From IMG/VR virus record IMGVR_UViG_3300042861_001045, positions 1-20,917 of that record: DNA of 20,917 bases. One strand, written 5' to 3'. Each line of letters opens with the position of its first letter. Position 1 is the stretch's first letter. This document shows positions 903-20,917 of this stretch, piece after piece. Source of the stretch: a virus. The notes under the pieces are model-generated. The model was not told where the DNA came from. It was given only the letters and a program-made list of their open reading frames with translations, and did no database searches. A program made the position numbers and the translations under genes.

Positions 903-929
903 TTCGAACTACCTTCCCCATAAAACGTT

Positions 930-958
930 ATTTTACCATGCCGAGTTGCTTTTGTCAA
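930..958 (-). promoter_or_regulatory. Sigma70-type promoter for the prohead protease gene
   Basis: On the minus strand there is TTGACA (958-953), a 17-base spacer and TAAAAT (935-930). This is close to consensus and sits between the portal stop and the protease start. It would give head assembly genes extra transcription independent of the terminase promoter. Confidence 0.7.
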
Positions 959-976
959 TTGCAACATCGGTCAGGA

Positions 977-3775: not shown

Positions 3776-4727
3776 CTTTAGGTTCCGATATAGTTACTCC
3801 ACTGTCGTCGTCCTTGAAGTTAAGTCCTTCTATCTGCGGCAGCAAGTTGGCTACAATTTGTACCCCACCACTGTCTCCTAACAGGCTAGTCTTGCCAGCA
3901 TAAAACCCGGCTACCTCACCTCGGTATTTCTCCGCTTGGATGGCAGCTTTCATATCGCCTTTTTTAACCGCCTGATCTCTGAGCATAGCCATATTCATCA
4001 AGTGCTCGGTGGCAGTAAATTCGGTGGACTCCCGCATTACCGAACGGATATGAGTCACGCGATTCAAAATACGGAAATCTGCCGAAAGCCTGTTTATCTC
4101 GTCCCTAGTTGGGGCTTTATCAAACGCGATTTTATAGGCGTACCGTACGTCGCCATACCTTATGTAATTGGCACAAAACGACTCTTCTTGGTACGTTAAT
4201 GGGACTTCGTTGGCATCAAACGATATCAACTCGCCGCGACGAGCCGGGGGTTCCGGTATATATTCCATTCCTGCGCCTATATTATTAGGGTCATCGTGAT
4301 CAAACTTTATTCCCTTGCCGTCGTTTTGATCTGCAGTCAACAACTGGAGGTTCCACGGGACGTTCAAACCCGACACTTTATCGCCCTGTAACGGCACAAT
4401 ATGGTCCACATGGTAATCCACGCCCGTGAGCTTTTTGATGCGTTTAGCTTTCTTGTAAAAAGCTTGGATTTGCTCCAACTGGGATTCGCTCAACCACTTG
4501 GGGGTCCTCTCATCAAGAGCAGCACGTCTTTTCTTGACGCGTTCAGCATACTGCTCTTTATTATTGAGATAGTGGTTACGTTTAGTTTCCCGGTAATGCT
4601 CTTCATTCTCGACACGCCATTTTTGGACGCTTTCGACGTTAGCCCTTCGTTTCTCGCACGGTGCACACGTCCCGTCTCTTGATAGATACGCTTGGCACTT
4701 TTGGCACTGAAATTTGGCTATTCTCAT
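3756..4727 (-). CDS. terS: HNH nuclease domain fused to terminase small subunit
   Basis: A 323-residue protein with three parts. Residues 8-24 hold a CxxC...CxxC knuckle (Cys8, 11, 21, 24) followed by a basic helical stretch. Residues about 104-142 carry an HNH-type motif (VDYHVDHIVPLQG, then LNVPWNLQLLTADQN and a Lys), the betaBetaAlpha-metal fold of HNH endonucleases. Residues about 177-282 (LTYQEESFCANYIRYGDVRYAYKIAF) match small terminase subunits, which recognise the packaging site and assemble as a ring. Position directly upstream of TerL supports this. HNH proteins beside terminases are known in cos-type phages, where they help make the cut; here the two are one polypeptide. The ATG at 4727 has no visible Shine-Dalgarno and lies about 8 bases from a -10 box, so the mRNA may be leaderless. 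Confidence 0.82.
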   Translation of the reverse strand: MRIAKFQCQKCQAYLSRDGTCAPCEKRRANVESVQKWRVENEEHYRETKRNHYLNNKEQYAERVKKRRAALDERTPKWLSESQLEQIQAFYKKAKRIKKLTGVDYHVDHIVPLQGDKVSGLNVPWNLQLLTADQNDGKGIKFDHDDPNNIGAGMEYIPEPPARRGELISFDANEVPLTYQEESFCANYIRYGDVRYAYKIAFDKAPTRDEINRLSADFRILNRVTHIRSVMRESTEFTATEHLMNMAMLRDQAVKKGDMKAAIQAEKYRGEVAGFYAGKTSLLGDSGGVQIVANLLPQIEGLNFKDDDSGVTISEPKDGLSIG

Positions 4728-4734
4728 ATATGCG

Positions 4735-4764
4735 AGTTTACCACAAAGATATATATCGTGTCAA
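4735..4764 (-). promoter_or_regulatory. Leftward promoter for the terminase/head operon
   Basis: On the minus strand there is TTGACA (4764-4759), an 18-base spacer and TAAACT (4740-4735), preceded by TGTGG as in the rightward promoters of this window. Transcription would begin about one base before the ATG of the HNH-TerS gene. Confidence 0.7.
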
Positions 4765-4947
4765 GGGTCCCATGGGTCAGGATTATCTTAGCCGGGGACA
4801 AAGGTTAAAAGACTATATAGTCCCGACCTACATTTACGGTTAAGTGTACTCCGTAGTCCCGGCCTGCCCCCAAGCCGGTTGTCTCTCGCGACTGGATGTA
4901 TCCCCTTTTGCAGCTGCTCGGCATTGGCTGTCGCTGGGTCCAGATAC

Positions 4948-4976
4948 TTGTGCAGAACCTTTCGATGCTGTATAAT
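4948..4976 (+). promoter_or_regulatory. Rightward early promoter
   Basis: TTGTGC (4948-4953), a 17-base spacer and TATAAT (4971-4976). The -10 box is perfect and the -35 matches at three of six positions (TTG). The predicted leader carries the GC-rich palindrome CCCTCCGGAGGG before the AGGAG site of the first gene. Confidence 0.65.
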
Positions 4977-5042
4977 AATCCCATGGTCGGCGATTCGGCC
5001 AGCCCCTCCGGAGGGAATCCGGACCCAATAGGAGACACGACA

Positions 5043-5429
5043 ATGACAACACGCACCAAAAAAGAAGCAGTAGAAGCAGTCCGTGCAGCAATCGAAGCCG
5101 TACAGACAGAAGCACACGACACAGCGACCCCACTCGACACGCCAAAAGGTGTTCTGGCTCTCGCAAGAAGCGTCGAGTACAGAGCAACGCTCCAGAGGAC
5201 GACGACCGCCACAGGTAACAAGAGCCTTGACAATGGCGACAGCGTGGCACTCCTCCTACGCGGTGCAGATCTCGAAACAGTCTACCAGATCGGGGCGAGA
5301 GAATTGGGAGTCACAGTGACCGAGCTTAAGACAAAGTACGCCCATCTCAATCCGGGCCAGCAGCGAATGAACGTTGGCAACAGGGTCCGCGGTGCGATCA
5401 AAAAGCACGAAGCCCGCCAAGCAGCCTAA
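5043..5429 (+). CDS. Conserved phage protein, KYGHLNPG-type paralog 1
   Basis: Function unknown. A 128-residue basic protein starting at ATG 5043, eight bases after AGGAG. The longer frame from 4896 has no ribosome site and would begin upstream of the promoter. Residues 1-25 are an Ala/Glu/Lys helix. Residues about 45-121 form a module shared with two other proteins here: KSLDNGD, then LRGADLETVY, LKTKYAHLNPGQQRM (95-109) and GNRVRGAIKK. The copies at 7825 and 11001 share the order LxGxxLxxVY / LKxKYxHLNPGxQRM / GxRxRG. The conserved basic RGxxKK end suggests nucleic-acid binding, as inference only. This kind of small protein is widespread in phages as hypothetical. Confidence 0.85.
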   Translation: MTTRTKKEAVEAVRAAIEAVQTEAHDTATPLDTPKGVLALARSVEYRATLQRTTTATGNKSLDNGDSVALLLRGADLETVYQIGARELGVTVTELKTKYAHLNPGQQRMNVGNRVRGAIKKHEARQAA

Positions 5430-7824: not shown

Positions 7825-8382
7825 ATGACTAGACAGACTAGAACACCAAGGCAGACCAAGAAATCGACCGAGGACGCAAAGGAGGTATTCAAGATGAACG
7901 AAGAGCGCATGAACGAGTTGTTGGATAGCATACCCGAAGATGAGAGTGTTGATATTGACGACTTGCCAGAAGGCGAGTACACAATGGAGGACCTCAAGTC
8001 CCTCGGTGTTGTTGATAGTGATGACGACCAGATCGAGAATGACAACATCAGAGATCCGGAGGACGACACCGAGATCGTTGGTTCGATGCCGCGATTGCGT
8101 GAGCCAGAATACCGCGCCAAGTTGGTGAAAGTGACCACTGCAGCAGGAGGCAAGAGCCTGTGCAACGGCGACCCAATTGCGTTACAACTGCAAGGCAAGA
8201 GCCTCGACGATGTTTACGAGGTAGGCTCACAATTCCTTGAGGTCACCGTTGACGCTCTGAAAGAGAAATACGGCCATCTGAATCCGGGCCAGCAACGCAT
8301 GAACATCGGTAACCGAATGAGGGGGTTGATCAAGAAACGTGACCGTGAAGCAGCCGAGTTGATAAAAGACACTGTTGAGTGA
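7825..8382 (+). CDS. Conserved phage protein, KYGHLNPG-type paralog 2, acidic N-terminus
   Basis: 185 residues; the ATG at 7825 follows GAGGA (7814-7818). Residues 1-20 are basic (TRQTRTPRQTKK). Residues about 25-88 are strongly acidic (IPEDESVDIDDLPEGEYTME, DSDDDQIEND) and probably disordered. The C-terminal module (94-172) matches paralog 1 closely: EYRAKL, KSLCNGDPIAL, LDDVYEVG, LKEKYGHLNPGQQRM and GNRMRGLIKK. The function is unknown. The added acidic arm could mimic DNA or bind a partner, which is inference. It is the largest of the three copies here. Confidence 0.85.
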   Translation: MTRQTRTPRQTKKSTEDAKEVFKMNEERMNELLDSIPEDESVDIDDLPEGEYTMEDLKSLGVVDSDDDQIENDNIRDPEDDTEIVGSMPRLREPEYRAKLVKVTTAAGGKSLCNGDPIALQLQGKSLDDVYEVGSQFLEVTVDALKEKYGHLNPGQQRMNIGNRMRGLIKKRDREAAELIKDTVE

Positions 8383-9723: not shown

Positions 9724-9936
9724 ATGAACGAGAAAATTGTTATCCACTGTGATGCTTGCAACGGCACATCTGTGCTACATGAGCAAATCATCAAACCCCC
9801 GCAGGGGGAACATCTGACCATGACAGAGGTGGCTAATAGGTCAAAAAAGGAGACAATTAAATACGATGCTTACATCTACAATCACTACAGGATGGTGTGC
9901 AAGGATTGCGGGCATATAGTGCAGTATTGGGTATAA
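9724..9936 (+). CDS. Small zinc-ribbon protein, 70 residues
   Basis: The ATG at 9724 follows AGGAGAATAAT, one base after the previous stop. Two cysteine pairs, Cys9/Cys12 (CDAC) and Cys59/Cys62 (CKDC), suggest a zinc ribbon closed around a charged middle segment. It ends GHIVQYWV. Zinc ribbons of this size in phages may bind nucleic acid or host proteins; no specific role can be assigned. Confidence 0.68.
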   Translation: MNEKIVIHCDACNGTSVLHEQIIKPPQGEHLTMTEVANRSKKETIKYDAYIYNHYRMVCKDCGHIVQYWV

Positions 9937-9953
9937 ACGCAGGAGGAAGAACA

Positions 9954-10436
9954 GTGGGTGAAGATTTAGCAGCATATGAACAAATCACCGAGTTGTTGAA
10001 TGTTGCAATGACAAGAGAGGTGACGCCAGCAGAAATGTTTGCCAAGATCCTCCGATGTATTGAGCAGATCACCAAAGAAATGGCGGAGTTGAAAGCAAGA
10101 TCGTACCATTTAGACGCACGATTGGGTGAAGACGCTAAAACTAAGGCACTGGCGGCATTGCGCAGTCAAGAACGCGAAAAAGATGAAAGCCCGCAACGAG
10201 GGCCAATACCCGGACATACCTATAGCCAATCACAAAAAGCCAAGATATACAGGGCCAAATACGGCAGAGAAGCACCGGAAGATCGCATTAAAGCACAAGA
10301 AAAAGAATGTGGGAGATGCGGCGTTATGAAACCGTTTCATGACTACCACGTTAATTCAAGAAACGCCGATGGCAAAGATACGCAATGTAAAGTGTGTAAA
10401 ATAGCTTACAAAAAACGAGTCGCCGCACAGCGTTGA
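9954..10436 (+). CDS. Helical protein with C-terminal zinc knuckle (GTG start)
   Basis: A GTG start at 9954 is chosen because AGGAGGA lies just upstream; the earlier in-frame ATG at 9897 is buried in the previous gene without a ribosome site. This gives 160 residues. Residues 1-55 are helical (EQITELLNVAM, KILRCIEQITKEMAELKARS), 56-115 are charged and basic, and 119-148 carry CGRC...CKVC (Cys119, 122, 145, 148) with MKPFHDYHVN between. This CxxC-MKP-CKVC module also occurs at 13699 and resembles the N-terminus of the HNH-TerS protein. It is often found on phage HNH nucleases, but no HNH motif is present here. DNA binding is plausible. Confidence 0.7.
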   Translation: MGEDLAAYEQITELLNVAMTREVTPAEMFAKILRCIEQITKEMAELKARSYHLDARLGEDAKTKALAALRSQEREKDESPQRGPIPGHTYSQSQKAKIYRAKYGREAPEDRIKAQEKECGRCGVMKPFHDYHVNSRNADGKDTQCKVCKIAYKKRVAAQR

Positions 10437-11000: not shown

Positions 11001-11333
11001 ATGTCCGACGAAATCAAAAAAGTACAAATCAAACCCGACCTGACCAAGTACGTTAAAGGCAAAAATGGCACTTTTCGTTCACAAGACGAAGTAGCCGAAA
11101 AGCTCGATGGCCTACACCTCGAAGAGGTTTACGGTCTGGTGTCCGGTGAATTGCAGGTTCCCGTCAGTGAGTTGAAAGACAAGTACGGTCACCTCAACCC
11201 CGGCTTGCAGCGTATGAGCCTTGGCGGACGTCTGCGTGGCGTGGCCCGCAAAGCCGAAACTGCAGCCAAGAAAGCTGCGCTAAAGGCTGAAAAAGAAGCC
11301 GCTAAAGCAGCTGCACAGCAAGAAGCCGCATAA
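11001..11333 (+). CDS. Conserved phage protein, KYGHLNPG-type paralog 3
   Basis: 110 residues; the ATG at 11001 follows ATGAGGTTAAC. Residues 34-82 hold the shared module (EKLDGLHLEEVY, LKDKYGHLNPGLQRM, GGRLRGVARK). The N-terminal part of the module seen in the other copies (KSLxNGD) is replaced by KNGTFRSQDE. The C-terminus (83-110) is an Ala/Lys/Glu helix, resembling basic tails that contact DNA. It is the first gene after a strong promoter, and its stop overlaps the helicase start (TAATG), suggesting equal expression and perhaps a shared role in DNA metabolism. Confidence 0.85.
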   Translation: MSDEIKKVQIKPDLTKYVKGKNGTFRSQDEVAEKLDGLHLEEVYGLVSGELQVPVSELKDKYGHLNPGLQRMSLGGRLRGVARKAETAAKKAALKAEKEAAKAAAQQEAA

Positions 11334-13000
11334 TGTCGGGGTCCATTTTTGGACTAATGGGAGGGGCCGGTTTACCGGCCCTTACTATTGAGGTAGACTA
11401 CAATGAAAAAACCCGATCGTTCAAAATGCGCGGCAACCCGTACCGCATCAATGATCTTCGCGGGATTCCTAATCGCAGATACGACAAACGCAATGATGTT
11501 TGGACCGCACCAAATACCTCTGCAAACGTTCGTTATCTCAAGTCAAACGCAACATTCGTCTTCACCGAAATTGCCAAGCGGCAAATCGAAGAAGCACTCG
11601 AACCGGCCAAGCAAGTCGAACTCGTTACGTGGGCATGGAAAACAAAGCCCATGGCCCACCAACAAGAAGCGCTATCAATTGCCCTGCGACGAGATTACCT
11701 TGCTCTCTTGCTCCCCACAGGAACTGGCAAAACGAAGCTAGCTATTGATATAGCAGCCGTTCGTTATGAACGCAAAGAAATCGATCGTCTGATATTGTTG
11801 GTCCCTGCCTCCCTTCAATTGAACTGGCAAGAAGAATTTGAGACTCATTGCCACGTCGATTACACTTTTGATCGCGGTAACGGACTCAAAATATCAAGTT
11901 TTACGATTGAAGGTTTAGGAATAACCAAATCAGGGTTCGAAAAAGCGCTAGCATTATGCGGCAAACGCACCATGATTGTGGCCGATGAATCAACCAAAAT
12001 CAAAAACCCCGACGCTGTACGCACCCAACGTGCTATTCACATCGCGCAAAAATGTAAATACCGGCATATTATGTCGGGTACACCAATCACCAAAGGCCCT
12101 CAAGATTTATATAGCCAATTCGAATTCATGAGTCCATCGCTGTTTGGACGTAGCAATTACGTCAGTTTTCGCAACCGTTATTGTGTGATGGGCGGCTACC
12201 AAAATCGTGAGGTTATCGGCTATGACAATATGGAGGAATTGCTTGAAATCGCTGCTTCGTGTTCTTATCAAGTTGACAAAAGGACGGTTTTACCAGACCT
12301 CCCCGACAAAGTATACACCCAACGTTACTGCAAGCCAACAAGCGAACAGGCTACTTTGTTTAAAGAGATACGAAAAAATCGTGAAACCTTGACCGAAAAT
12401 GGGGTGATTACCGCAAAGAACGTTCTGGAAAGAATGTTGAGGCTGCAAAGTGTTTGCGGTGGATTCGTAAACGTCGAAACGGATGCAGGAAAAGTATCAA
12501 CTCCCGTTGGCAAGACTAACCCCAAAATTAATTTGTTGATGGAGTTCCTCGACGAGTTCGATGAACCGGCACTTATTTGGACTCCGTACATTTCTGAAAT
12601 CAAAACCATAGGAGCGGTACTTGAAAAAAGATACGGAAATAACAATGTGGGCTATTTATACGGCGATATTGATCGTGACGCTCGTCAGCGGTATGTTAAT
12701 AGTCTTCAACGAGGTTCTATCAGATACATCGTCGGAAACCCCAGCACCGGAGGAATCGGCCTCACAATGACGGCAGCAAAAGCTGCTATTTACTTCACCA
12801 ATTCATATAACTACATCGACCGAGTTCAGTCCGAAGACCGCATACACCGCAAAGGACAAACGGATAAAGTTCTAATTGTCGATTTCATTATGGAGAACAC
12901 AGTAGACGAAGTTGTGATGATGGCGTTAAAAGCTAAGTCGGACGTATCTGATTTCATACGCGACAATCTTCAGTTGATTCTTGATAATAACGTAATATAG
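11333..13000 (+). CDS. SNF2/DEAD-like superfamily II helicase
   Basis: 555 residues. Residues about 18-75 (FKMRGNPYRIND, RRYDKRNDVWTAP) resemble the HARP-like segment of SMARCAL1-type annealing helicases. The helicase core has a Q-like segment AHQQEAL (108-114), Walker A LPTGTGKTKLA (127-137), motif II ADES (217-220), motif III MSGTPITKG (247-255), and in the C-terminal lobe NPSTGGIGLTMTAAK and the motif VI SEDRIHRKGQTDKV. These SF2 ATPases translocate on duplex DNA and remodel forks or anneal strands; in phages they occur in replication and recombination modules. The start overlaps the previous stop by one base. A complex hairpin region follows the stop. Confidence 0.9.
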   Translation: MSGSIFGLMGGAGLPALTIEVDYNEKTRSFKMRGNPYRINDLRGIPNRRYDKRNDVWTAPNTSANVRYLKSNATFVFTEIAKRQIEEALEPAKQVELVTWAWKTKPMAHQQEALSIALRRDYLALLLPTGTGKTKLAIDIAAVRYERKEIDRLILLVPASLQLNWQEEFETHCHVDYTFDRGNGLKISSFTIEGLGITKSGFEKALALCGKRTMIVADESTKIKNPDAVRTQRAIHIAQKCKYRHIMSGTPITKGPQDLYSQFEFMSPSLFGRSNYVSFRNRYCVMGGYQNREVIGYDNMEELLEIAASCSYQVDKRTVLPDLPDKVYTQRYCKPTSEQATLFKEIRKNRETLTENGVITAKNVLERMLRLQSVCGGFVNVETDAGKVSTPVGKTNPKINLLMEFLDEFDEPALIWTPYISEIKTIGAVLEKRYGNNNVGYLYGDIDRDARQRYVNSLQRGSIRYIVGNPSTGGIGLTMTAAKAAIYFTNSYNYIDRVQSEDRIHRKGQTDKVLIVDFIMENTVDEVVMMALKAKSDVSDFIRDNLQLILDNNVI

Positions 13001-13004
13001 CTTC

Positions 13005-13049
13005 GGGTGCGGGAACCTTTTTTAACGGTTCAATAAAACGACCGCACCC
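13005..13049 (+). terminator. Nested stem-loop after the helicase gene
   Basis: Outer arms GGGTGCGG (13005-13012) and CCGCACCC (13042-13049); inner arms GAACC (13013-13017) and GGTTC (13027-13031), with TTTTTTAAC in the inner loop. It starts four bases after the helicase stop. No T-run follows, so it is an imperfect intrinsic terminator and may instead protect the mRNA 3' end. Confidence 0.5.
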
Positions 13050-13059
13050 ACCCTTTCAA

Positions 13060-13115
13060 TGACCACGGCACTTTTATCTTTTCTGGGGCGGATTGATCGA
13101 AGATCGTCGTGGTCA
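13060..13115. repeat. Long-looped inverted repeat TGACCACG/CGTGGTCA
   Basis: Perfect 8-base arms at 13060-13067 and 13108-13115 with a 40-base loop, inside the 255-base spacer between the helicase and the next gene. The function is unknown. Confidence 0.5.
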
Positions 13116-13133
13116 CCCATTTCGGAAAAACAA

Positions 13134-13157
13134 TGTTAACAGAAATGTTTCACAACA
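13134..13157. promoter_or_regulatory. Possible operator upstream of the 13204 promoter
   Basis: The perfect palindrome TGTTAACA (13134-13141) is followed by a second TGTT-tcac-AACA (13146-13157). Two TGTT/AACA dyads in 24 bases, 24 bases before a -35 box, fit a paired binding site for a dimeric regulator. No cognate repressor is visible in the window. Confidence 0.35.
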
Positions 13158-13180
13158 GCGGCGTTCCGGTGGATTTGGGC

Positions 13181-13209
13181 TTGACGCCGCCGAACGAGTG
13201 TGGTATACT
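13181..13209 (+). promoter_or_regulatory. Sigma70-type promoter
   Basis: TTGACG (13181-13186), a 17-base spacer and TATACT (13204-13209), also with TGTGG just before the -10. It drives the 13256 gene and probably the genes to 14709. Confidence 0.75.
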
Positions 13210-13255
13210 ACATGTGTCGGGGATATCCGGCGTAATCAATAACAAGGTGAACAAA

Positions 13256-13696
13256 ATGACTAAAGAAGAAAAGATGACCCAGATAATCGAAGTGCTTGAA
13301 GAAAAGTCCCTCCGCGAATTGGCTTCGTTGATTGTCCGCTACAGCAACGACTATGATGAGGCGAAACGGGTGGCGTCAGCCATCAATGAGGAACTCGACA
13401 CCATCAAGAAATACACCGCCGAGCGCATGGATCGAGAAGGAGTCCAAAACGCTACGTTTCCCGATATCGGACGACTTGGGATCGCGCCAATTGTACGTGC
13501 GTCTGTTAAAGCCGACCAGAAGCAAAGTGCGTACGGGTGGCTACAAGATCACGGCCACGGTGATTTGATCACTACCACTGTTAATGCCAGTTCCCTTGCC
13601 GCTTTAATCCGACGCGAGATCAAAGCTGGTAACGAAGTTCCCGAAGATATTTTTAACGTCATGCAGTATGACGTCGCCACCGTAACTAAGAGCTAG
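13256..13696 (+). CDS. Conserved phage protein of the replication region, 146 residues
   Basis: The ATG at 13256 follows AAGGTGAAC; the longer frame from 13109 begins upstream of the promoter. Residues about 1-65 are a long charged helix (IEVLEEKSLRELASLIVRY, EAKRVASAINEELDTIKKYT), then a beta-type segment (FPDIGRLGIAPIVRASVKAD) and YGWLQDHGHGDLITTTVNAS, SLAALIRREIKAGNEVPEDI. The second half (Trp-Leu-x2-His-Gly-x-Gly-Asp-Leu-Ile, then VNAxxLxALI) is a pattern I have seen in phage early proteins of unknown function near recombination genes. No enzymatic motif is seen. Confidence 0.75.
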   Translation: MTKEEKMTQIIEVLEEKSLRELASLIVRYSNDYDEAKRVASAINEELDTIKKYTAERMDREGVQNATFPDIGRLGIAPIVRASVKADQKQSAYGWLQDHGHGDLITTTVNASSLAALIRREIKAGNEVPEDIFNVMQYDVATVTKS

Positions 13697-13698
13697 TC

Positions 13699-13968
13699 AT
13701 GAAAAAATGTCGTCAGTGCGGCGAAATGAAGCCAGATTCCGAGTTCCACAAGCACCCAACCGCCACAGATTTGTTGCGCAAGGACTGCAAAGTGTGCAGG
13801 AATGCTAACATACGGGACAAGTACCGCACTGACACATTTCAGAATCACCTCAAAGAGTACCGGTCCAGCACCGAGTACAAGAGGCACAAAGCGGCTTACA
13901 TGAGAGAGTACAACAGGAGGAAACGCGATGAGATAAACAAGACTAATGCATCCAACGACGAAGATTAA
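13699..13968 (+). CDS. Small zinc-knuckle protein, 89 residues
   Basis: It starts two bases after the previous stop, with no clear ribosome site, so it is probably coupled. The N-terminus has Cys4/Cys7 (CRQC) and Cys30/Cys33 (CKVC) with GEMKP and an FHKH segment between, the same module as at 9954-10436. The remainder is a basic, Tyr-rich helix (NIRDKYRTDTFQNHLKEYR, KRHKAAYMREYNRRKRDE). This layout matches the N-terminal half of many phage HNH endonucleases but the HNH core is absent, so it is either a stand-alone DNA-binding protein or a truncated nuclease. Confidence 0.7.
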   Translation: MKKCRQCGEMKPDSEFHKHPTATDLLRKDCKVCRNANIRDKYRTDTFQNHLKEYRSSTEYKRHKAAYMREYNRRKRDEINKTNASNDED

Positions 13969-13989
13969 TTTAACACATAGGTATATCAA

Positions 13990-14709
13990 ATGTCTAATAA
14001 AGAACTCGTAACTACACCATCCTACATCAATGCCGACTCCAATCGCGGTAACGATGCGGTGTCAATGACCGATATCGAAATCCCCCGCCTTGAAATTATA
14101 CAGTCCCTCAGCCCCTGCCGGGAAAAAGGTAATGTAGATTATATCGAAGGTGCCGAAGAAGGACTGCACTACAACACAGTGACCCGCGAACTGTACGGCG
14201 ATTCAGTGATCGTCTGCCCGGTTCACTACCTGCCACAGTTCCTTATCTGGAAGGACCGTAAGCTCGGTGGTGGATTCCGTGGCGCATTCAACACGGCACA
14301 AGAAGCTAACCGTCGCAGAGCGCAATTGGCTGCTGAAGATGGTCTAGCCGAATCTTCATTCACCATCGCTGAGACGCATACCAACTACGCACTACTTGTT
14401 GGAGCAGACGGTAGCGCAAGCGAAATCGTGCTGAGCTTTAGTCGTTCTAAGTTGAAGGTGTCACGCAAGTGGAATTCCATCATCCGCATGAATGGCGGCG
14501 ACAGATTCAGTCGCGTGTACCAGCTGAAATCGGTCGTCGAGAAGAACGCTCAAAATCAGAGCTACTACAACTGGTCTATCGCAACTGCGGGATACCCTGC
14601 CGAGGAAGTATACCGTCATGCCGAGAGCCTGTACAACGTAATCGGAGAAGGACGTGCTACCGTCGATTATTCTGATGTGATGGGTTCAGAAGCATCTGAC
14701 GAAATTTAG
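13990..14709 (+). CDS. Putative phage DNA-binding protein of the replication module
   Basis: 239 residues; the ATG at 13990 has no strong ribosome site upstream. It begins MSNKELVTTPSYINADSN and has DIEIPRLEIIQSLSPCRE (28-45), a segment typical of a group of phage proteins found with polymerases and recombinases and suspected to bind single-stranded DNA. Then come LHYNTVTRELYGDSVIVCPV (59-78), VHYLPQFLIWKDRKLGGGF, and a C-terminal half with LSFSRSKLKVSRKWNSIIR. The end is acidic (DYSDVMGSEASDEI), as in single-strand binding proteins, but lacks the final PF of an SSB tip. Tandem terminators follow, marking high or isolated expression. The assignment is tentative. Confidence 0.65.
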   Translation: MSNKELVTTPSYINADSNRGNDAVSMTDIEIPRLEIIQSLSPCREKGNVDYIEGAEEGLHYNTVTRELYGDSVIVCPVHYLPQFLIWKDRKLGGGFRGAFNTAQEANRRRAQLAAEDGLAESSFTIAETHTNYALLVGADGSASEIVLSFSRSKLKVSRKWNSIIRMNGGDRFSRVYQLKSVVEKNAQNQSYYNWSIATAGYPAEEVYRHAESLYNVIGEGRATVDYSDVMGSEASDEI

Positions 14710-14721
14710 TTCACCAGTGCG

Positions 14722-14739
14722 GGGCGTATAGCCCTTTTT
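14722..14739 (+). terminator. Short intrinsic terminator
   Basis: GGGC-gtata-GCCC (14722-14734) followed by five Ts, 12 bases after the stop of the 13990 gene. The stem is only 4 base pairs (5 with a G-U type extension), so it is weak alone. Confidence 0.5.
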
Positions 14740-14741
14740 AT

Positions 14742-14773
14742 AGCCGGGAGCGAATTACTCCCGGCTCTTTTTG
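14742..14773 (+). terminator. Strong intrinsic terminator
   Basis: A perfect 9-base stem AGCCGGGAG (14742-14750) and CTCCCGGCT (14758-14766) with a 7-base loop, followed by CTTTTT. It ends the 13990 transcript. The ribosome site GAGG of the next gene begins directly after the T-run, so read-through may set polymerase cassette expression. Confidence 0.85.
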
Positions 14774-14782
14774 AGGTGTTTA

Positions 14783-15070
14783 ATGTCTAATTTAACGTGG
14801 CGGACTAGTCAGAAAGGTAATCCCTACATCAAAGACGGGAATTTTCTGATATCAGTATTCGAGAGACAACGCGATCCGGGGTTTTGTTGGTGCATTAGCA
14901 GCGACGAGGATGCAATTAAGATATTCAGCAAGGGCGCTTTTGGTAAACGCACCGAGGCGATGACCGACGCCATACGTAATTATGCGCATCTGGTCCAAGA
15001 GGCCGACCCGATTGAGGATTCACCACGTCAGGACGACGACCCCCATTATGATGATGACGTGCCATTTTAA
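14783..15070 (+). CDS. Small protein with an SSB-like C-terminal tip
   Basis: 95 residues; the ATG at 14783 follows GAGGTGTTTA. The body (NLTWRTSQKGNPYIKDGNFL, ISVFERQRDPGFCWCISSDE, then a helix AMTDAIRNYAHLVQEA) looks like a small alpha/beta domain. The tail DSPRQDDDPHYDDDVPF is acidic and ends DDDVPF, nearly the DDDIPF tip by which bacterial SSB recruits RecQ, PriA, exonuclease I and polymerase partners. It therefore may be a single-strand DNA binding or SSB-mimicking accessory protein, although no OB-fold is evident to me. The stop overlaps the polymerase start by one base, implying they are made together. Confidence 0.72.
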   Translation: MSNLTWRTSQKGNPYIKDGNFLISVFERQRDPGFCWCISSDEDAIKIFSKGAFGKRTEAMTDAIRNYAHLVQEADPIEDSPRQDDDPHYDDDVPF

Positions 15071-16833
15071 TGTACCCCATACTGCGCGACGAGATTGTAG
15101 CGATCGATCTTGAAACCACCGGTTTGAGGTGGTGGGGATTGGATCAGTATTTCGGTATAGCTATAGCAACATCTAAAGGGGAATGGTACTACGATATTAG
15201 ACGGGATCCCTCAATAATCCCGTGGCTTCGCGACAATATTCCGAAGTGTCGTTTGATGTGTAATCACAACCTCAAATTCGACGCTCACTTTATGTCGGAA
15301 TTGCTGACGGCACCGAAAATCCATTGTACGATGATAGCTGAGGCTCTTATTGACGAGCACCGGCAATCGTATTCACTCGATAACGTTTCTAAGTTCCGGA
15401 GGCTTGGAGCTAAGGTCGGGATCGAGTGGGCCAAGAATGATATGGCTAATGCCCCGTATGATATGATGGCCAAGTACGCATCTGTGGACGCTAGGCTTGC
15501 CAGAGACTTGTGCATCAAGCAATTGTCGGATATCCGCGATCAGGAACTATCACAGGTATTCGATATGGAAATGGACCTGTTCAGAGTATTGGTTGATATC
15601 GAGGGCCGTGGAGTACCGGTAGACGTTAGAGCAGCCGAGGAATCAATACCAAAGCTGACGTCGATGATCGACTCGACACAATTGGAGATTAATACACTGG
15701 CGGGGTCACCGCTGAATGTTAATTCGGGGCCACAGGTGAAAGCTCTGTTTGCACCGGAGAAGATCAGCGAGACACGATGGCGCTTGGTGGATGGTACCAT
15801 AGCGCCCAGTACCAAAGGAGGTAGCGTAAGCTTGACTCAAGACGTGCTCCGCACAATGACCCATCCAGTGGCGTCTTTGATTATGCGGTTGCGCAAATTA
15901 ATCAAAGCCCGTGACACGTTTGTGATGGGCCATGTGTTAGGACATGAACACAATGGAATCGTACATACTAGTTTCAATCAAACGCGGACTGAATTTGACT
16001 CCGGAACAGCGACGGGCCGTCTATCGAGCACTAGCCCAGCACTTCAACAGATTAGCAAGCGAGATCCCGAATTTGCCGGAATCATCAGATCCTTGTTTAT
16101 CCCATTTGGAGGTCAGTCATGGCTCTGCTGTGACCACAGTCAGATCGATTTTAGAGTTGCAGCACACTTACAAAACGATCCACGGGTGATCAAAAGCTAC
16201 TGGGATGACCCGAGTCTGGACTACCACGATTTCACGGCCAAGATGATGAACATCCCGAGGAATCCGGAGTACGCCGGTGCACCGAATGCCAAGCAGATTA
16301 ACCTGGGGCTACAATTTGGTGCTGGACCCGGCAAGATTGCTAAAACGATGGGAATGCCATACACCACGCAAGTGAAGGACGGCATGGAGCGCTATATAGG
16401 TGGCCCCGATATCATGAAGCTGTTTGAGCGGTATCACTCTACACTGCCGATGACAAAGCAGTTTTCATCCAGAGCACAGACAATTGCATCAACACGAGGG
16501 TACGTGAAGACGCTAATGGGTCGTCGGTTGCGGTACCCGAAAATGATGGGCGCACACAAGGCAGCGGGTCATCTTTACCAAGCCAATGCTGCCGAGTGCC
16601 ACAAGACTGCGTTAATACGGATACACAACTTGCTCAAGAATACCAAGAGCAGTTTGATGGTATCAGTGCATGACGAAATAGGTGTTAGCTTAGACCCAAC
16701 GGAGGTGAATTTAATAGCTGAAATCAAAAGAATATACTGTGACTTTCAAAGCGACGAGGCACCATTCAAGTTACGCGTTCCCATTGAATGTAGTGCTGAT
16801 GTTGGACCCAACTGGTATATAGCGAGTAAGTAA
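15070..16833 (+). CDS. dpoZ: Family A DNA polymerase with 3'-5' exonuclease (DpoZ-type)
   Basis: 587 residues. Exonuclease: AIDLETTGL (Asp13, Glu15), CNHNLKFD (64-71, Asp71) and YASVDARLARD (Tyr136, Asp140). Polymerase: TATGRLSSTSPALQQI (313-328), motif A CCDHSQIDFR (Asp355, with Asp360 in place of the usual steric-gate Glu), O-helix PNAKQINLGLQFGAG (405-419, Lys408) and motif C VSVHDEIGV (His534, Asp535, Glu536). Against Klenow, Arg754 aligns with Ala404, Phe762 with Leu412 and Tyr766 with Phe416. It lacks a 5' nuclease domain. Immediately followed by purZ, it matches the DpoZ type described in aminoadenine siphoviruses such as phiVC8. The preference for Z is inferred, not shown. Confidence 0.9.
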   Translation: MYPILRDEIVAIDLETTGLRWWGLDQYFGIAIATSKGEWYYDIRRDPSIIPWLRDNIPKCRLMCNHNLKFDAHFMSELLTAPKIHCTMIAEALIDEHRQSYSLDNVSKFRRLGAKVGIEWAKNDMANAPYDMMAKYASVDARLARDLCIKQLSDIRDQELSQVFDMEMDLFRVLVDIEGRGVPVDVRAAEESIPKLTSMIDSTQLEINTLAGSPLNVNSGPQVKALFAPEKISETRWRLVDGTIAPSTKGGSVSLTQDVLRTMTHPVASLIMRLRKLIKARDTFVMGHVLGHEHNGIVHTSFNQTRTEFDSGTATGRLSSTSPALQQISKRDPEFAGIIRSLFIPFGGQSWLCCDHSQIDFRVAAHLQNDPRVIKSYWDDPSLDYHDFTAKMMNIPRNPEYAGAPNAKQINLGLQFGAGPGKIAKTMGMPYTTQVKDGMERYIGGPDIMKLFERYHSTLPMTKQFSSRAQTIASTRGYVKTLMGRRLRYPKMMGAHKAAGHLYQANAAECHKTALIRIHNLLKNTKSSLMVSVHDEIGVSLDPTEVNLIAEIKRIYCDFQSDEAPFKLRVPIECSADVGPNWYIASK

Positions 16834-16834
16834 A

Positions 16835-17860
16835 ATGAATACGATGATAGTCGATCTCCAATTCGGCAGCACTGGAAAAGGACTCATAGCCGGTTACATG
16901 GCGATGAAAAATCAACCAGACACAGTAGTGACAGCAAATGGCCCCAATTCGGGCCATATTTTTATTGATGGGAACGGCAACAAGGTGAAGATGCGCCAGC
17001 TTCCTGTAGGAGTGGTATCACCGAATCTTAAACGCATTATGCTTGGTCCGGGCGCTATTATCGACCCGGTAGTATTACGGGAAGAAATAGACACGTACAT
17101 CGAGTACATCGGTCAAGCTGATATAATCATCCATAAGAATGCTGCTGTAGTTTTGGATTATGACAGGGAGGCCGAGAGAGACCTCGGAAGGATCGGGAGC
17201 ACCCAGACGGGTACCGGCAGCGCCATGCTCCGGAAGATGGCCCGGAAGCCCTCGGAGGGGCCTTCGACGGCATCCGTCGCGGGGGACTTCGACTGGGGAT
17301 CCGATATAATGGTAGTCAATACCCGCGAGTGGTTGATGCATTTCGGTATGGCGGATAGGTGGCAGATAGAAGGATGCCAGGGATATTCTTTGAGTATCCA
17401 CCACGGATTTTGGCCATATACTACATCAAGAGACTGTACGCCAGCACAATTAATATCAGACTGTGGGTTACCGGTAAGTGTTTTGATGAACACGAATATA
17501 ATAGGATGCGCGAGGACCTACCCGATACGTGTAAACAATAAGACTGGATCGAGCGGTCCGTGTTACGATGATCAAAAAGAGATCAGTTGGGCCGACATAG
17601 GCGTAGAGCCTGAGTTGACCACAACTACCCACTTGCCGCGTCGGATTTTTACGTTTTCACACGACCAAATCTATGAGGCGTTGAGCATAGTTTGTCCCGA
17701 TGTGATGTTCTTGAATTTCGCGAATTACATGTCTGATTCCGACTTTAATAACTTAGTGGACGCAATTCGATACCGTACTGGCTTCGAAGGTGAAATAATC
17801 AGTGGGCATGGTCCTACTATCAATGATGTGAAACATTACGGAGGTTACTATGGCATATGA
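16835..17860 (+). CDS. purZ: PurZ, 2-aminodeoxyadenylosuccinate synthetase
   Basis: 341 residues, homologous to adenylosuccinate synthetase (PurA) but shorter than the roughly 430 of bacterial PurA. The P-loop reads QFGSTGKG (9-16): the catalytic Asp of the PurA signature GDEGKGK is Ser12, the hallmark of PurZ, which acts on dGMP rather than IMP. PNSGHIF keeps catalytic His41. Other landmarks are GPGAIIDP, GSTQTGTGSA, EGCQGYSLSIHHGFWPYTTS and THLPRRIFTFS. PurZ condenses dGMP with aspartate, giving the precursor of 2-aminoadenine deoxynucleotide that host PurB then cleaves. It starts one base after the polymerase stop with no clear ribosome site, so is coupled, and overlaps the MazZ gene by 11 bases. 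Confidence 0.93.
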   Translation: MNTMIVDLQFGSTGKGLIAGYMAMKNQPDTVVTANGPNSGHIFIDGNGNKVKMRQLPVGVVSPNLKRIMLGPGAIIDPVVLREEIDTYIEYIGQADIIIHKNAAVVLDYDREAERDLGRIGSTQTGTGSAMLRKMARKPSEGPSTASVAGDFDWGSDIMVVNTREWLMHFGMADRWQIEGCQGYSLSIHHGFWPYTTSRDCTPAQLISDCGLPVSVLMNTNIIGCARTYPIRVNNKTGSSGPCYDDQKEISWADIGVEPELTTTTHLPRRIFTFSHDQIYEALSIVCPDVMFLNFANYMSDSDFNNLVDAIRYRTGFEGEIISGHGPTINDVKHYGGYYGI

Positions 17861-18185
17861 AAAAATGTCGATTGACGAACTGGCCGACGAGGTATACCGT
17901 TGGGCCGACAAGCAATTTCCGGATCGCAACCCGGATCAAGCATGGCACAAGCTGAATGAAGAACTGGCAGAGTTATTCAAGGAGCCAAAAAATCCCAAAG
18001 AATACGCTGACGTTTTTATCGTTTTGCTTGACTTAGCCGCTCTTAATGGCATTAGCTTGGAAACCGAGATTCTGACCAAGCTCGAAATTAACAAAATGAG
18101 CAATTGGGTTAGGGATGGTGATGTAATGAGAAGGGTAAAATCTCCAGTTACCGAAATCAAAAAATACCACTACCCAGAAGATTGA
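17850..18185 (+). CDS. mazZ: MazG-like nucleotide pyrophosphohydrolase (MazZ type)
   Basis: 111 residues, all-alpha MazG fold. The metal site ExxE...ExxD is visible: EELAE (Glu38, Glu41) and EYAD (Glu51, Asp54), followed by VFIVLLDLAALNGI. MazZ enzymes of Z-DNA phages cut dGTP, and in some cases dATP, to monophosphates, supplying dGMP to PurZ. The ATG at 17850 follows GGAGG inside the end of purZ, in a different frame. Identity as MazZ rather than a housekeeping MazG rests on the position between purZ and datZ. The TGA stop lies in the upstream element of the next promoter. Confidence 0.88.
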   Translation: MAYEKMSIDELADEVYRWADKQFPDRNPDQAWHKLNEELAELFKEPKNPKEYADVFIVLLDLAALNGISLETEILTKLEINKMSNWVRDGDVMRRVKSPVTEIKKYHYPED

Positions 18186-18227
18186 GTATAGACGGGGACC
18201 ACTCGATGTGGTATACTAGTGGTCCCC
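18182..18227 (+). promoter_or_regulatory. Extended -10 promoter inside a perfect inverted repeat
   Basis: TTGAGT (18182-18187), 24 bases, then TGTGGTATACT with -10 at 18212-18217. Perfect 10-base arms GGGGACCACT (18194-18203) and AGTGGTCCCC (18218-18227) flank it. It lies inside the Z cassette and gives datZ and downstream genes a second source of transcription. Confidence 0.7.
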
Positions 18228-18247
18228 ACCACATACAGGTAAATGAC

Positions 18248-18418
18248 ATGTTTGGTTTAATAGGCTCGTTGGTAGGATTAATTTTCAATATCGCGTTGTT
18301 TGCATTGAATCTGGTATGGACCTTTTTATGCGTTGTCATATGGATAATGTGGGGTGTCATATTTGGGTTCAGCGTTGGAGCACGACCCATTAATGTCGGA
18401 CCCTTTAGGGCAGAGTAA
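18248..18418 (+). CDS. Small membrane protein, 56 residues
   Basis: The ATG at 18248 is the first in-frame start after the promoter and follows AGGTAAATGAC. The sequence MFGLIGSLVGLIFNIALFAL, then NLVWTFLCVVIWIMWGVIFG, is hydrophobic over about residues 2-43: one long or two short membrane helices. A short polar tail follows (ARPINVGPFRAE). No signal cleavage site or known family is seen. It is the only membrane gene in the nucleotide cassette. Its stop overlaps the next start (TAATG). Confidence 0.68.
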   Translation: MFGLIGSLVGLIFNIALFALNLVWTFLCVVIWIMWGVIFGFSVGARPINVGPFRAE

Positions 18419-18807
18419 TGAATAAGACACAATTCTTACGTTTCATAGGAGACGTGGCAGAAAAGTTAAGGGGGTTATCAAACTCCAAAGGCGTCGAATA
18501 CGCCGGTAGTGATAACCAGTTTGCGAATTTCGAGAGGCTTGCCGATAGGCTTGGCCTAGATCGTGAACGCGTTTTGATGGTGTATCTCAGCAAGCACATG
18601 GATGCCATTGATAGTTGGGTTAAAACCCGCAAGGAATTCAGTGAACCGATTGAGGGTAGGATTGAAGATGCTATCCTTTACCTTACGTTATTGCTTGCCA
18701 TGACGAAAGAATCAAAACAAGGACCCCAAGGGGCCAAATTACCAGAAATAGCAAAAGGTTTAAATGGACCTGCAGGTCCTACTAACCTTGGGAGATTCGG
18801 AGAATGA
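18418..18807 (+). CDS. Small all-alpha protein, possibly DUF1599/MazG-like
   Basis: 129 residues. A helical domain spans residues 1-95: EYAGSDNQFANFERLADRLG (27-46), VLMVYLSKHMDAIDSWV (52-68) and EPIEGRIEDAILYLTLL (76-92). The spacing of Glu76, Glu79, Glu83 and Asp84 recalls the acidic E-x-D-DxxxY segment of DUF1599 (nucleotide modification associated) and all-alpha pyrophosphohydrolases. A Gly/Pro tail follows (GPQGAKLPEIAKGLNGPAGP). It lies between mazZ and datZ, overlapping both neighbours' reading frames by one to four bases. The family label is a guess from pattern; a role in nucleotide pools is inferred from position. Confidence 0.68.
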   Translation: MNKTQFLRFIGDVAEKLRGLSNSKGVEYAGSDNQFANFERLADRLGLDRERVLMVYLSKHMDAIDSWVKTRKEFSEPIEGRIEDAILYLTLLLAMTKESKQGPQGAKLPEIAKGLNGPAGPTNLGRFGE

Positions 18808-19331
18808 AAATAAACGACTTAATGAGGACGTCATACGTCAAACGATGGCACATTGTCGACGTATCGCGGGAACAATCAGTGGCCGAACATTCAGCACTGG
18901 TAGCGTATATCGCAATCGACCTTATACGTAACACACCGGCAGTAGATGATTCGGTGTCATTGGAGGCTATGTGGTGGGCGTTATACCATGATGCGGGTGA
19001 GGTAATACTGGGGGATCCCCCCGGTAATCTTAAGCTGACACCGGGGTTTGCAGACGTCTACAAGAAAATGGCCGAACACTACACCCCAAGTATGTGTAAT
19101 ATGGACGTTTCTGAGGTTGCAGTTCAAGCTGTGAAGATAGCTGATCTGGTTGAATCAATACGGTACATGAGACGATATGGTGTAGGCAGCGAAGTCATAA
19201 TCATCGAGTCAAATTTATATGAGCGTCTTGAGGCATATGCTAACAAAACCCCATATGTTGAGACATGGGGCGGCGTGTATGAAGATGTAATGTACGGAAG
19301 ACCGACAATTGCGAATGTAGAAATCCCGTAA
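18804..19331 (+). CDS. datZ: HD-domain dATP triphosphohydrolase (DatZ type)
   Basis: 175 residues, HD superfamily close to YfbR-type nucleotidases. Metal ligands: His29 (QSVAEHS), His62-Asp63 (ALYHDAGEVI) and Asp114 (KIADLVESI). Arg14-Trp15 (VKRWHIV) is also typical of this group. DatZ of cyanophage S-2L strips the triphosphate from dATP, clearing the competing nucleotide so that 2-aminoadenine is used instead; the length here equals that enzyme's as I recall it. The LGDPPGNLK segment after the HD pair matches the YfbR group too, so a general deoxynucleotidase is the alternative, but the purZ/mazZ context favours DatZ. It starts four bases inside the previous gene. Confidence 0.9.
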   Translation: MKINDLMRTSYVKRWHIVDVSREQSVAEHSALVAYIAIDLIRNTPAVDDSVSLEAMWWALYHDAGEVILGDPPGNLKLTPGFADVYKKMAEHYTPSMCNMDVSEVAVQAVKIADLVESIRYMRRYGVGSEVIIIESNLYERLEAYANKTPYVETWGGVYEDVMYGRPTIANVEIP

Positions 19332-19762
19332 TGAAGATAAGAAATGAAAAGGACCTTTGGGCTGACCTTAAAAAGGCCATGCTGGGGCGATGGACCGCCC
19401 AACGCCACTCTGATATAGATTTTGGCCCCGGTGTTCCAGATGTGTCCTTTGTGATGCCAGAATCAAATGGGGTAACAGCGTGGTGCGAATTAAAGGTATG
19501 GTTCCCCAAAGATAAATATTATAAAATAGAGCACTATACCCAATACCAAAAAGATTGGATGATGGAACAATACAGGCTGGGAGTACCGGTATCACTATTA
19601 CTGGACGTCCAGACTGAGTATTACTTGTTCAAGGGATCGGATATTCTGGCTCCCGGATTAGTTGACATATCAGAGTATATAAATTACTGTTGTTGGCGCG
19701 GGACCAAGTTATCCGGAATTTATGACGCCTTCTGTGAATTGGTGAACAAAGATGGCAGATAA
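19331..19762 (+). CDS. VRR-NUC-like PD-(D/E)XK nuclease
   Basis: 143 residues. The active-site pattern of VRR-NUC nucleases is visible: RHSDIDFGPGVPDVSF (Asp37), WCELKVW (Glu53, Lys55) and TQYQKDWM (Gln73). These enzymes cut branched or flap DNA, often beside phage helicases and primases. The C-terminal part (LGVPVSLLLDVQTEYYLFKG) completes the fold. The start overlaps the datZ stop (TAATG), and it overlaps the primase gene by 11 bases, so it belongs to the same operon. A nuclease in the Z cassette might act in replication or on host DNA, which lacks the modification; the latter is speculation. Confidence 0.82.
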   Translation: MKIRNEKDLWADLKKAMLGRWTAQRHSDIDFGPGVPDVSFVMPESNGVTAWCELKVWFPKDKYYKIEHYTQYQKDWMMEQYRLGVPVSLLLDVQTEYYLFKGSDILAPGLVDISEYINYCCWRGTKLSGIYDAFCELVNKDGR

Positions 19763-20917
19763 CTTAGAAAATCTTATCGGTGAATACGATAAGATTCTGA
19801 ACACGATAAAAATAATAACATCAAGAGCACACGGTTTTGAAATTTCTTGCTGCACGCGGGGTGAAAAATCAATAATCGACACTAAGTATTTCAACAAAGA
19901 GGATATTAAGAGCGCAGTCCAGTGGGTAATGTCCAACAACGGAAAGCGCGAAGTATACGTCAACATCAACCGCATCGAAGAAGATTACGTACAAGAACGC
20001 CATAGCCGAATCAGCGATAACGACATAGACAAACGACTGTGGCTATTAATTGATTTGGATGCAGAAGGTGGAAAGAAAACGAATCCACCCCAAAGCAATA
20101 TCGACATGGCAGGGGCCATAGCAGGGCAGATCAAAGAAGACATGAGCAGTCTTTATCTGTGGCCGGATCCGTTAATAGCCAGTACCGGCAACGGATTCCA
20201 TATGTTGTACCCGATCAGCTGCAAGGCCGATAGCAATACCGATTCTATCATCCAACGCGTAACTGAGCAAATCGCCATATCATACGCGATAACGGGATTG
20301 GTGAAGATAGATAAACTTTACGATCGGTCAAGAATCGTGAGGTTGTACGGGACCCGGAACATCAAACATATCGGGGAAGCCAAGACGTCAGAAATCTTGT
20401 CGATGCCTAGTTTTGATAGATTTCTATCACACAAAGACTTAGAAAATTTCGTATCGACTAGCCACGTCAACGCTAACAACGTCGTGGCCCAAAGCGACTT
20501 CGATATGGACGGGTTTATTAAGCAATTCGTCCCCGATGCCAAGAAGACAATCCGGGCCACTAGGGAGTTGTGGAGCGTACCATGCCCCAATAACCCCGAT
20601 CACGACAAAGATAGCAAACCCCAGGTAATTAAGTTTACCGACAAAGGTAACTACGGGTTCAAATGCCATCACGACTCGTGTAAAACGACTACCATCTACG
20701 ACTTCATCAAAAAATACGATTCAGCGGCTGTAGCAAGACTTAAAAAATCGAACAAGATCAGTGGCTCGTACGATACTAAAGTCATCAATGGGTATAAAAG
20801 TGCTATTGAGGATTTGATCAGCAATGGGCGCATCGGGCAAATCAAATATGACGAATTTCAAGACAAGGTAACAATCGAAGGATTTCATGGTCGTGATTTG
20901 GATACGATCGCCTTCGA
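19752..20917 (+). CDS. AEP-type primase, probably fused to a helicase domain (C-terminus off the right edge)
   Basis: 388 residues are visible and the frame is open at the right edge. The catalytic core has LLIDLDAEG (Asp101, Asp103), STGNGFHMLYP (144-154, His150) and YDRSRIVRLYGTRN (190-203), the three motifs of archaeo-eukaryotic primases/PrimPol. A zinc-binding segment follows: CPNNPDH (Cys278, His284) and CHHDSC (305-310). After residue 340 a new segment begins, with YKSAIEDLISNGRIGQIKYD and GFHGRDLDTIAF, resembling the start of VapE/primase-helicase domains. It would prime or extend DNA at the fork; S-2L also has a PrimPol. It starts 11 bases inside the nuclease gene. The helicase part needs the sequence beyond the edge. 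Confidence 0.85.
   Translation, partial: MADNLENLIGEYDKILNTIKIITSRAHGFEISCCTRGEKSIIDTKYFNKEDIKSAVQWVMSNNGKREVYVNINRIEEDYVQERHSRISDNDIDKRLWLLIDLDAEGGKKTNPPQSNIDMAGAIAGQIKEDMSSLYLWPDPLIASTGNGFHMLYPISCKADSNTDSIIQRVTEQIAISYAITGLVKIDKLYDRSRIVRLYGTRNIKHIGEAKTSEILSMPSFDRFLSHKDLENFVSTSHVNANNVVAQSDFDMDGFIKQFVPDAKKTIRATRELWSVPCPNNPDHDKDSKPQVIKFTDKGNYGFKCHHDSCKTTTIYDFIKKYDSAAVARLKKSNKISGSYDTKVINGYKSAIEDLISNGRIGQIKYDEFQDKVTIEGFHGRDLDTIAF

Follow-up and report, generated by a model that had tools for sequence, protein, structure and literature searches.

A complete predicted 2-aminoadenine (Z) gene cassette in an uncultured phage contig, with a possible palindrome footprint

The closest described systems for the replacement of adenine by 2-aminoadenine (Z) in phage DNA are those of Acinetobacter phage SH-Ab 15497, cyanophage S-2L and Vibrio phage phiVC8. 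In SH-Ab 15497, the genes of the DNA polymerase DpoZ, PurZ, MazZ and DatZ follow one another in this order, with a gene for a single-stranded DNA-binding protein between dpoZ and purZ, a MazZ fused to DUF5664, and genes for an SNF2 helicase and a gp34-like protein upstream. S-2L has purZ, mazZ-1 and datZ in this order and a stand-alone MazZ-1, and, being without DpoZ, uses PrimPol (PMC8065100). phiVC8 carries DpoZ, PurZ, DatZ and a MazZ of the MazZ-2 type, its dpoZ and purZ being separated by a large gene with an integrase annotation. Here we describe the corresponding Z cassette of an uncultured phage, contained in the IMG/VR record IMGVR_UViG_3300042861_001045. The whole record (20,917 bases) was analysed and is called the window below; it is classed as linear and is therefore possibly a fragment.

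The Z-gene block and its relation to known systems

The block begins at position 15070 and consists of six tightly packed genes, all on the + strand, with the four Z genes intact. Two of the six are open reading frames (ORFs) of 78 and 129 amino acids.

15070..16833, + strand: DpoZ, 587 amino acids; family A DNA polymerase carrying a 3'-5' exonuclease domain; predicted preference for 2-aminoadenine deoxynucleoside triphosphate (dZTP)
16835..17860, + strand: PurZ, 341 amino acids; succino-2-amino-deoxyadenylate synthase (dGMP + Asp + (d)ATP)
17850..18185, + strand: MazZ-1, 111 amino acids; MazG-like (d)GTP pyrophosphohydrolase, predicted dGMP supplier
18182..18418, + strand: 78-amino-acid ORF with a hydrophobic stretch
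18418..18807, + strand: 129-amino-acid ORF, phrog_6802
18804..19331, + strand: DatZ, 175 amino acids; HD-domain dATP triphosphohydrolase

At the sequence level, matches to curated families and to PDB entries place the four gene identities beyond chance. The cassette is real and complete, and is very likely functional. The best explanation of these observations, which we regard as highly probable, is that the virion DNA contains 2-aminoadenine in place of adenine, with the enzyme activities and the substitution itself predicted from characterised homologues. This reading is preferred because of the placement and the active-site serine of PurZ, the insertions, steric gate and fold of DpoZ, the residues retained in DatZ, and the metal- and guanine-binding residues of MazZ. 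In the proposed route, MazZ would convert (d)GTP into dGMP, from which PurZ, with aspartate, would form the succino intermediate; host PurB and nucleotide kinases, which were not seen in the window, would complete dZTP. DatZ would remove dATP from the pool, and DpoZ would copy the genome with preference for dZTP over dATP, so that virion DNA carrying 2-aminoadenine for adenine would be protected at restriction sites containing A.

An earlier note on this DNA had described a single block of four co-oriented, overlapping genes. All four are indeed present, intact and on one strand. However, one base lies between dpoZ and purZ, which do not overlap, and the 78- and 129-amino-acid ORFs lie between mazZ and datZ. 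Among the models named in that note, S-2L is an imperfect one, in view of its PrimPol and the lack of the palindrome footprint described below.

As in SH-Ab 15497 (about 37–41% protein identity), the four functions are encoded in this order, with SNF2 helicase and gp34-like genes upstream. The window differs in its stand-alone MazZ, in having no gene inserted between dpoZ and purZ, and in two unrelated ORFs before datZ. The order purZ, mazZ-1, datZ and a stand-alone MazZ-1 of similar size are shared with S-2L, from which the window differs in possessing DpoZ. The DpoZ proteins of phiVC8 and the window belong to one subfamily, share the three insertions and F459, and are 36% identical, the window protein being without most of helices E1 and E2; the two phages differ also in MazZ type. 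The nearest DpoZ relatives (about 47–48% identity) were found in six uncultured IMG/VR contigs (L061, L062, L064, L065, L067 and L099) that have a compact DpoZ-PurZ-MazZ-DatZ block, are without the 78- and 129-amino-acid ORFs between mazZ and datZ, and have GC-only palindromes equally purged where these were counted.

An alignment-based scan of IMG/VR returned 80 DpoZ loci, most of them with purZ, mazZ and datZ nearby, while a scan of viral contigs started from the single protein returned nothing. The gene order and tight spacing of the window recur in many IMG/VR contigs. Since this arrangement is widespread and fits published descriptions of Z clusters (PMC8342488, PMC12884076), it is of a known kind. 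No close DNA relative of the window was found among cultured phages.

Sequence features of the four enzymes

Residue and feature definitions for PurZ, MazZ, DatZ and DpoZ were taken from PMC8342488, PMC8065100 (DatZ) and PMC8599892 (DpoZ). PurZ, a member of the adenylosuccinate synthetase superfamily by its PF00709 match, scored 316 bits against the curated NCBIfam model NF038379 (cut-off 300) and is 44% identical to S-2L PurZ. Its motif is GSTGKG, as compared to GDEGKG in the four rows of cellular PurA: at the position of S-2L S23, the window has Ser in place of the catalytic Asp of PurA, as does every one of the 68 phage PurZ rows compared. The window protein also retains Q190, R146, V241, T273, R280 and F306. 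In a tree with four rows each of cellular PurA and PurZ0, PurA was split off with 100/100 support, PurZ0 with 99/99, and the PurZ clade containing the window with 98/96. This is the phylogeny of PurZ against PurA that the earlier note had called for, and it places the window PurZ outside cellular PurA. In the same tree, a PurZ-like gene with GSTGKG lies inside a large bacterial contig of a metagenome-assembled genome (L241, DJLZ01000001.1, about 313.8 kb into 994 kb); it groups with L240 and L243, close to the base of the PurZ clade, and may be prophage or cellular.

The window DpoZ scored 666 bits against NF038380 (phage_DpoZ_1; cut-off 500), and its nearest solved sequence is 7pbk, the phiVC8 DpoZ. 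The same entry was the top PDB match of the AlphaFold model (mean predicted local distance difference test score 88), with a Z-score of 35.7 over 561 aligned residues, and ordinary family A polymerases followed close behind in this fold comparison. All three phiVC8-type insertions are present. R440, L455, F459 (the Phe steric gate), G548, H581 and D582 are retained, as are the exonuclease residues D26, E28 and D85. The Tyr to Phe change of the steric gate at F459 is common to both DpoZ clades (PMC8599892). The extended, mobile E1/E2 helices are a characteristic of phiVC8 DpoZ and are not required by the curated family; the window protein, in which the E1/E2 extension is absent, is counted as a member for its curated score, its insertions and its clade. 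From its sequence, the protein is a phiVC8-like DpoZ with a predicted dZTP preference. As to naming, the model matched here is NCBIfam 'DpoZ_1', while in PMC12884076 the name DpoZ-2 is used for PurZ-phage polymerases.

In the DpoZ tree, the window grouped with the uncultured L061, L062, L064 and L067 (100/99), which L065 and L099 joined in another tree, and this clade is separate from SH-Ab 15497, PMBT28, phiVC8 and BUCT555. The deeper branching order is unsure because the sole outgroup is long-branched. Among the DpoZ-family rows, a Tyr at the F459 position was seen only in L107, L109, L115 and L117, which have Ala at the G548 position and in which purZ was not detected; these nested polymerases suggest loss of Z or a non-Z use.

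MazZ, of the MazG-HisE family, matched PF04447 (E-value 6e-11) and the solved S-2L MazZ 7ody (5e-12), and it retains the metal ligands E35, E38, E50 and D53 and the guanine contacts I56 and D60. By descent and by place, the 111-amino-acid product is MazZ-like, and (d)GTP pyrophosphohydrolase activity is predicted. DatZ matched phrog_7076, 'dATP triphosphohydrolase' (4e-23), and the solved S-2L DatZ 6zpa (2e-7). Equivalents of R19, W20, I22, H34, H66, D67, E70, D75, K81, K116 and D119 are kept, covering the HD metal ligands, the ligands of the second metal, and the phosphate and base contacts to dATP; the exception is P79, replaced by Asn.

The palindrome footprint and the weighing of the Z reading

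If Z stands for A, sites containing A would be safe, and selection would be expected only against sites made of G and C alone (GC-only). The window contains one GC-only hexamer palindrome as compared to 25.2 expected (maximal-order Markov model; Poisson probability 3e-10), while palindromes with 2, 4 and 6 A/T bases occur at 0.89, 0.88 and 0.94 of the Markov expectation and GC-only non-palindromes at 1.00. When codons were shuffled synonymously within 17 window genes, 19.3 ± 4.2 GC-only palindromes were expected (minimum 11 in 300 shuffles), again against one observed, and 159 A-containing palindromes were observed with respect to 147 expected (1.08). The loss of almost all GC-only palindromes with retention of A-containing ones matches the prediction of Z-DNA protection. 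Tetramer palindromes gave no useful bias.

The depletion is shared with the verified Z phages SH-Ab 15497 and phiVC8: under the synonymous null, the observed/expected values for GC-only and A-containing palindromes were 0.32/0.92 in SH-Ab 15497, 0.17/0.89 in phiVC8 and 0.28/0.84 in ZP6. For the 59 non-redundant Z loci, median values were 0.31 and 0.93, as compared to 0.68 and 0.69 in 18 loci that share the terminase lineage of the window and have no detected Z genes (p = 6e-6 for A-containing palindromes and p = 2.5e-5 for the log-ratio), these controls being few and mostly of one lineage and the loci not fully independent. Seven DpoZ-family loci without purZ gave 0.41 and 0.83. Two other sources of controls were discarded: of 80 gp34-like loci considered as matched controls without Z, purZ is present in 69 and the remainder are mostly short or truncated, and the S-2L terminase as query gave two loci only. 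The test arose during exploration and was not preplanned. A precedent is the loss of site avoidance in hydroxymethylcytosine coliphages (PMC6286503), and in the literature searched no report on palindrome avoidance in Z phages was found. We lean slightly towards the view that Z-substitution leaves a footprint legible from sequence, in which GC-only hexamer palindromes are purged and, because Z shields them, those that contain A are nearly unconstrained.

Several observations weigh against the Z-substitution reading or against the footprint as its sign. In MazZ, the transition-state arginine R83, present in 52 of 54 aligned MazZ sequences, is Ser in the window, and H95, a His in 51 of 54, is Arg; R83 is reported to be preserved in both MazZ variants and is described as 'probably important' (PMC8342488). 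Because both residues are absent, MazZ activity is less certain. In PurZ, A50 is replaced by Ser and T53 by Ile, residues found in 5 and 2 of the 68 phage PurZ rows, respectively. DpoZ, compared with other members of its family, has lost about a dozen residues in the region of exonuclease helices E1/E2. As for the footprint, the verified Z phage S-2L (L230, GC content 0.69) shows no GC-only depletion (0.91/1.08), unlike the window, and the non-Z Yersinia phage 29.18 shows part of the bias (0.48/0.76), so that the footprint is supportive and not diagnostic.

The altered MazZ residues and the shortened E1/E2 region could be taken to mean that some dZTP is made and that the genome is a mixture of A and Z. 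We consider such partial substitution unlikely: that GC-only palindromes are nearly all lost and A-containing ones fully tolerated fits a strong and long-standing protection at A, and in phiVC8 DpoZ Z selectivity rose, and did not fall, when helix E2 was altered by R161A/M165A (PMC8599892). To the idea that the purZ-like gene is a cellular-type PurA for AMP synthesis and the polymerase an ordinary PolA, for which the PF00709 superfamily membership might speak, we give next to no credence. PurZ falls outside PurA with full support and has Ser in place of the PurA Asp, the polymerase exceeds the curated DpoZ cut-off, and mazZ and datZ are co-located; in sequence terms these points refute it. The Z-substitution reading of the earlier note is thus supported by the analysis, through the placement and serine of PurZ, the residues kept in DpoZ and DatZ and largely in MazZ, and the footprint, which is independent support.

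Head genes, contig continuity and accessory ORFs

Outside the six-gene block, the following features were recognised, the helicase and the two Pam3-type proteins being assigned to the replication module.

977-4727, - strand: portal, large terminase and HNH/endonuclease VII-like gene
11333..13000, + strand: SNF2-type helicase; PF00176, best relatives in Z phages
13109..13696, + strand: Pam3 gp33-like protein; PF23984, relatives in 67 fetched DpoZ-type loci
13990..14709, + strand: Pam3 gp34-like protein; PF23977 (8e-64), best relatives in Z phages
19331..19762, + strand: VRR-NUC-type nuclease ORF; phrog_2165, directly 3' of datZ

The proteins at 9897-10436 and 13699-13968 match endonuclease VII and Lar-like restriction-alleviation profiles, and in the 323-amino-acid protein at 3756-4727 an HNH/endonuclease VII-like N-terminal part is joined to a region weakly similar to small terminases. 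A related terminase was found in 46 IMG/VR contigs, many of which are fragments; PurZ was detected in 0 of the 46 (positive controls 4 of 4), and no credible DpoZ was seen in them, a 17-bit partial match being the single hit. By their sequence relationships, the terminase and portal are from a lineage other than that of the Z phages, without detected Z genes. Cultured terminase relatives include Shewanella phage vB_Sb_QDWS and Pantoea phage PdC23, both with baseplate-J genes, and repressor and integrase genes occur in QDWS and Yersinia phage 29.18. The Z phages were assigned to Siphoviridae and Podoviridae in the 2021 papers (PMC8342488, PMC8599892); the window contains no tail genes. Contig L057 is 97.6–99% identical in DNA to window positions 1-2818 and reaches beyond the left end of the window.

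The absence of PurZ and of a credible DpoZ from the terminase-related contigs could also mean that the contig is an assembly chimera, in which the head module of a non-Z phage was joined to the replication module of a Z phage, with the genes themselves intact. We hold this to be very improbable. Three window paralogues of phrog_8941 (motif GHLNPGxQRMNxGNRxRG) lie at 4896-5429, just past the terminase genes, at 7825-8382 and at 11001-11333, and this family is otherwise present in about 37 DpoZ-type loci and in none of the terminase-lineage loci. Moreover, GC content is even across the contig, GC-only palindromes number 0 in the head part (1-4800) and 0 in the replication part (11001-20917), and mosaic phages are normal.

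Of the two ORFs between mazZ and datZ, the 78-amino-acid one shares 4 and 1 bases with the adjoining genes, had no family match in the profile libraries and no homologue among the fetched loci, and is probably a small membrane protein. The family of the 129-amino-acid one (phrog_6802; conserved motifs KGxEY, NF, KH and RIxDAIxYL) lies no more than 1.5 kb from datZ in 11 of the 61 non-redundant Z loci (the window, L070, L071, L075, L077, L080, L084, L091, L108, L122 and L068). It occurs also in phages RM378 and Mel-JY34, in whose inspected stretches purZ is not annotated. The protein was modelled as four helices, with a weak likeness to all-alpha nucleoside triphosphate pyrophosphohydrolases (Z-scores of about 6–8, below the requirement for helical bundles), and Foldseek alone gave nothing significant. 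An identity as a second MazZ or as DUF5664 was rejected, with no profile similarity and no Pfam domain. We regard this ORF as a candidate further component of the cassette. The VRR-NUC-type family phrog_2165 lies within the same distance of datZ in 16 of the 61 loci.

Cassettes of this kind have been described; this one belongs to an uncultured phage, and among the relatives of its terminase and portal no Z genes were detected. What is new is a deep-branching DpoZ, an unusual head-module context and a sequence footprint that appears undescribed. The window DpoZ and those of the six uncultured contigs make up a clade with good support, apart from the cultured Z phages in the comparison. As a natural variant that is without most of E1/E2, the window protein could help to show how DpoZ discriminates Z from A. 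The footprint makes restriction escape, the proposed purpose of Z-DNA, testable across many genomes. If true, it would provide natural evidence that Z persists because of restriction blocking, and Z genomes would be recognisable without chemistry.

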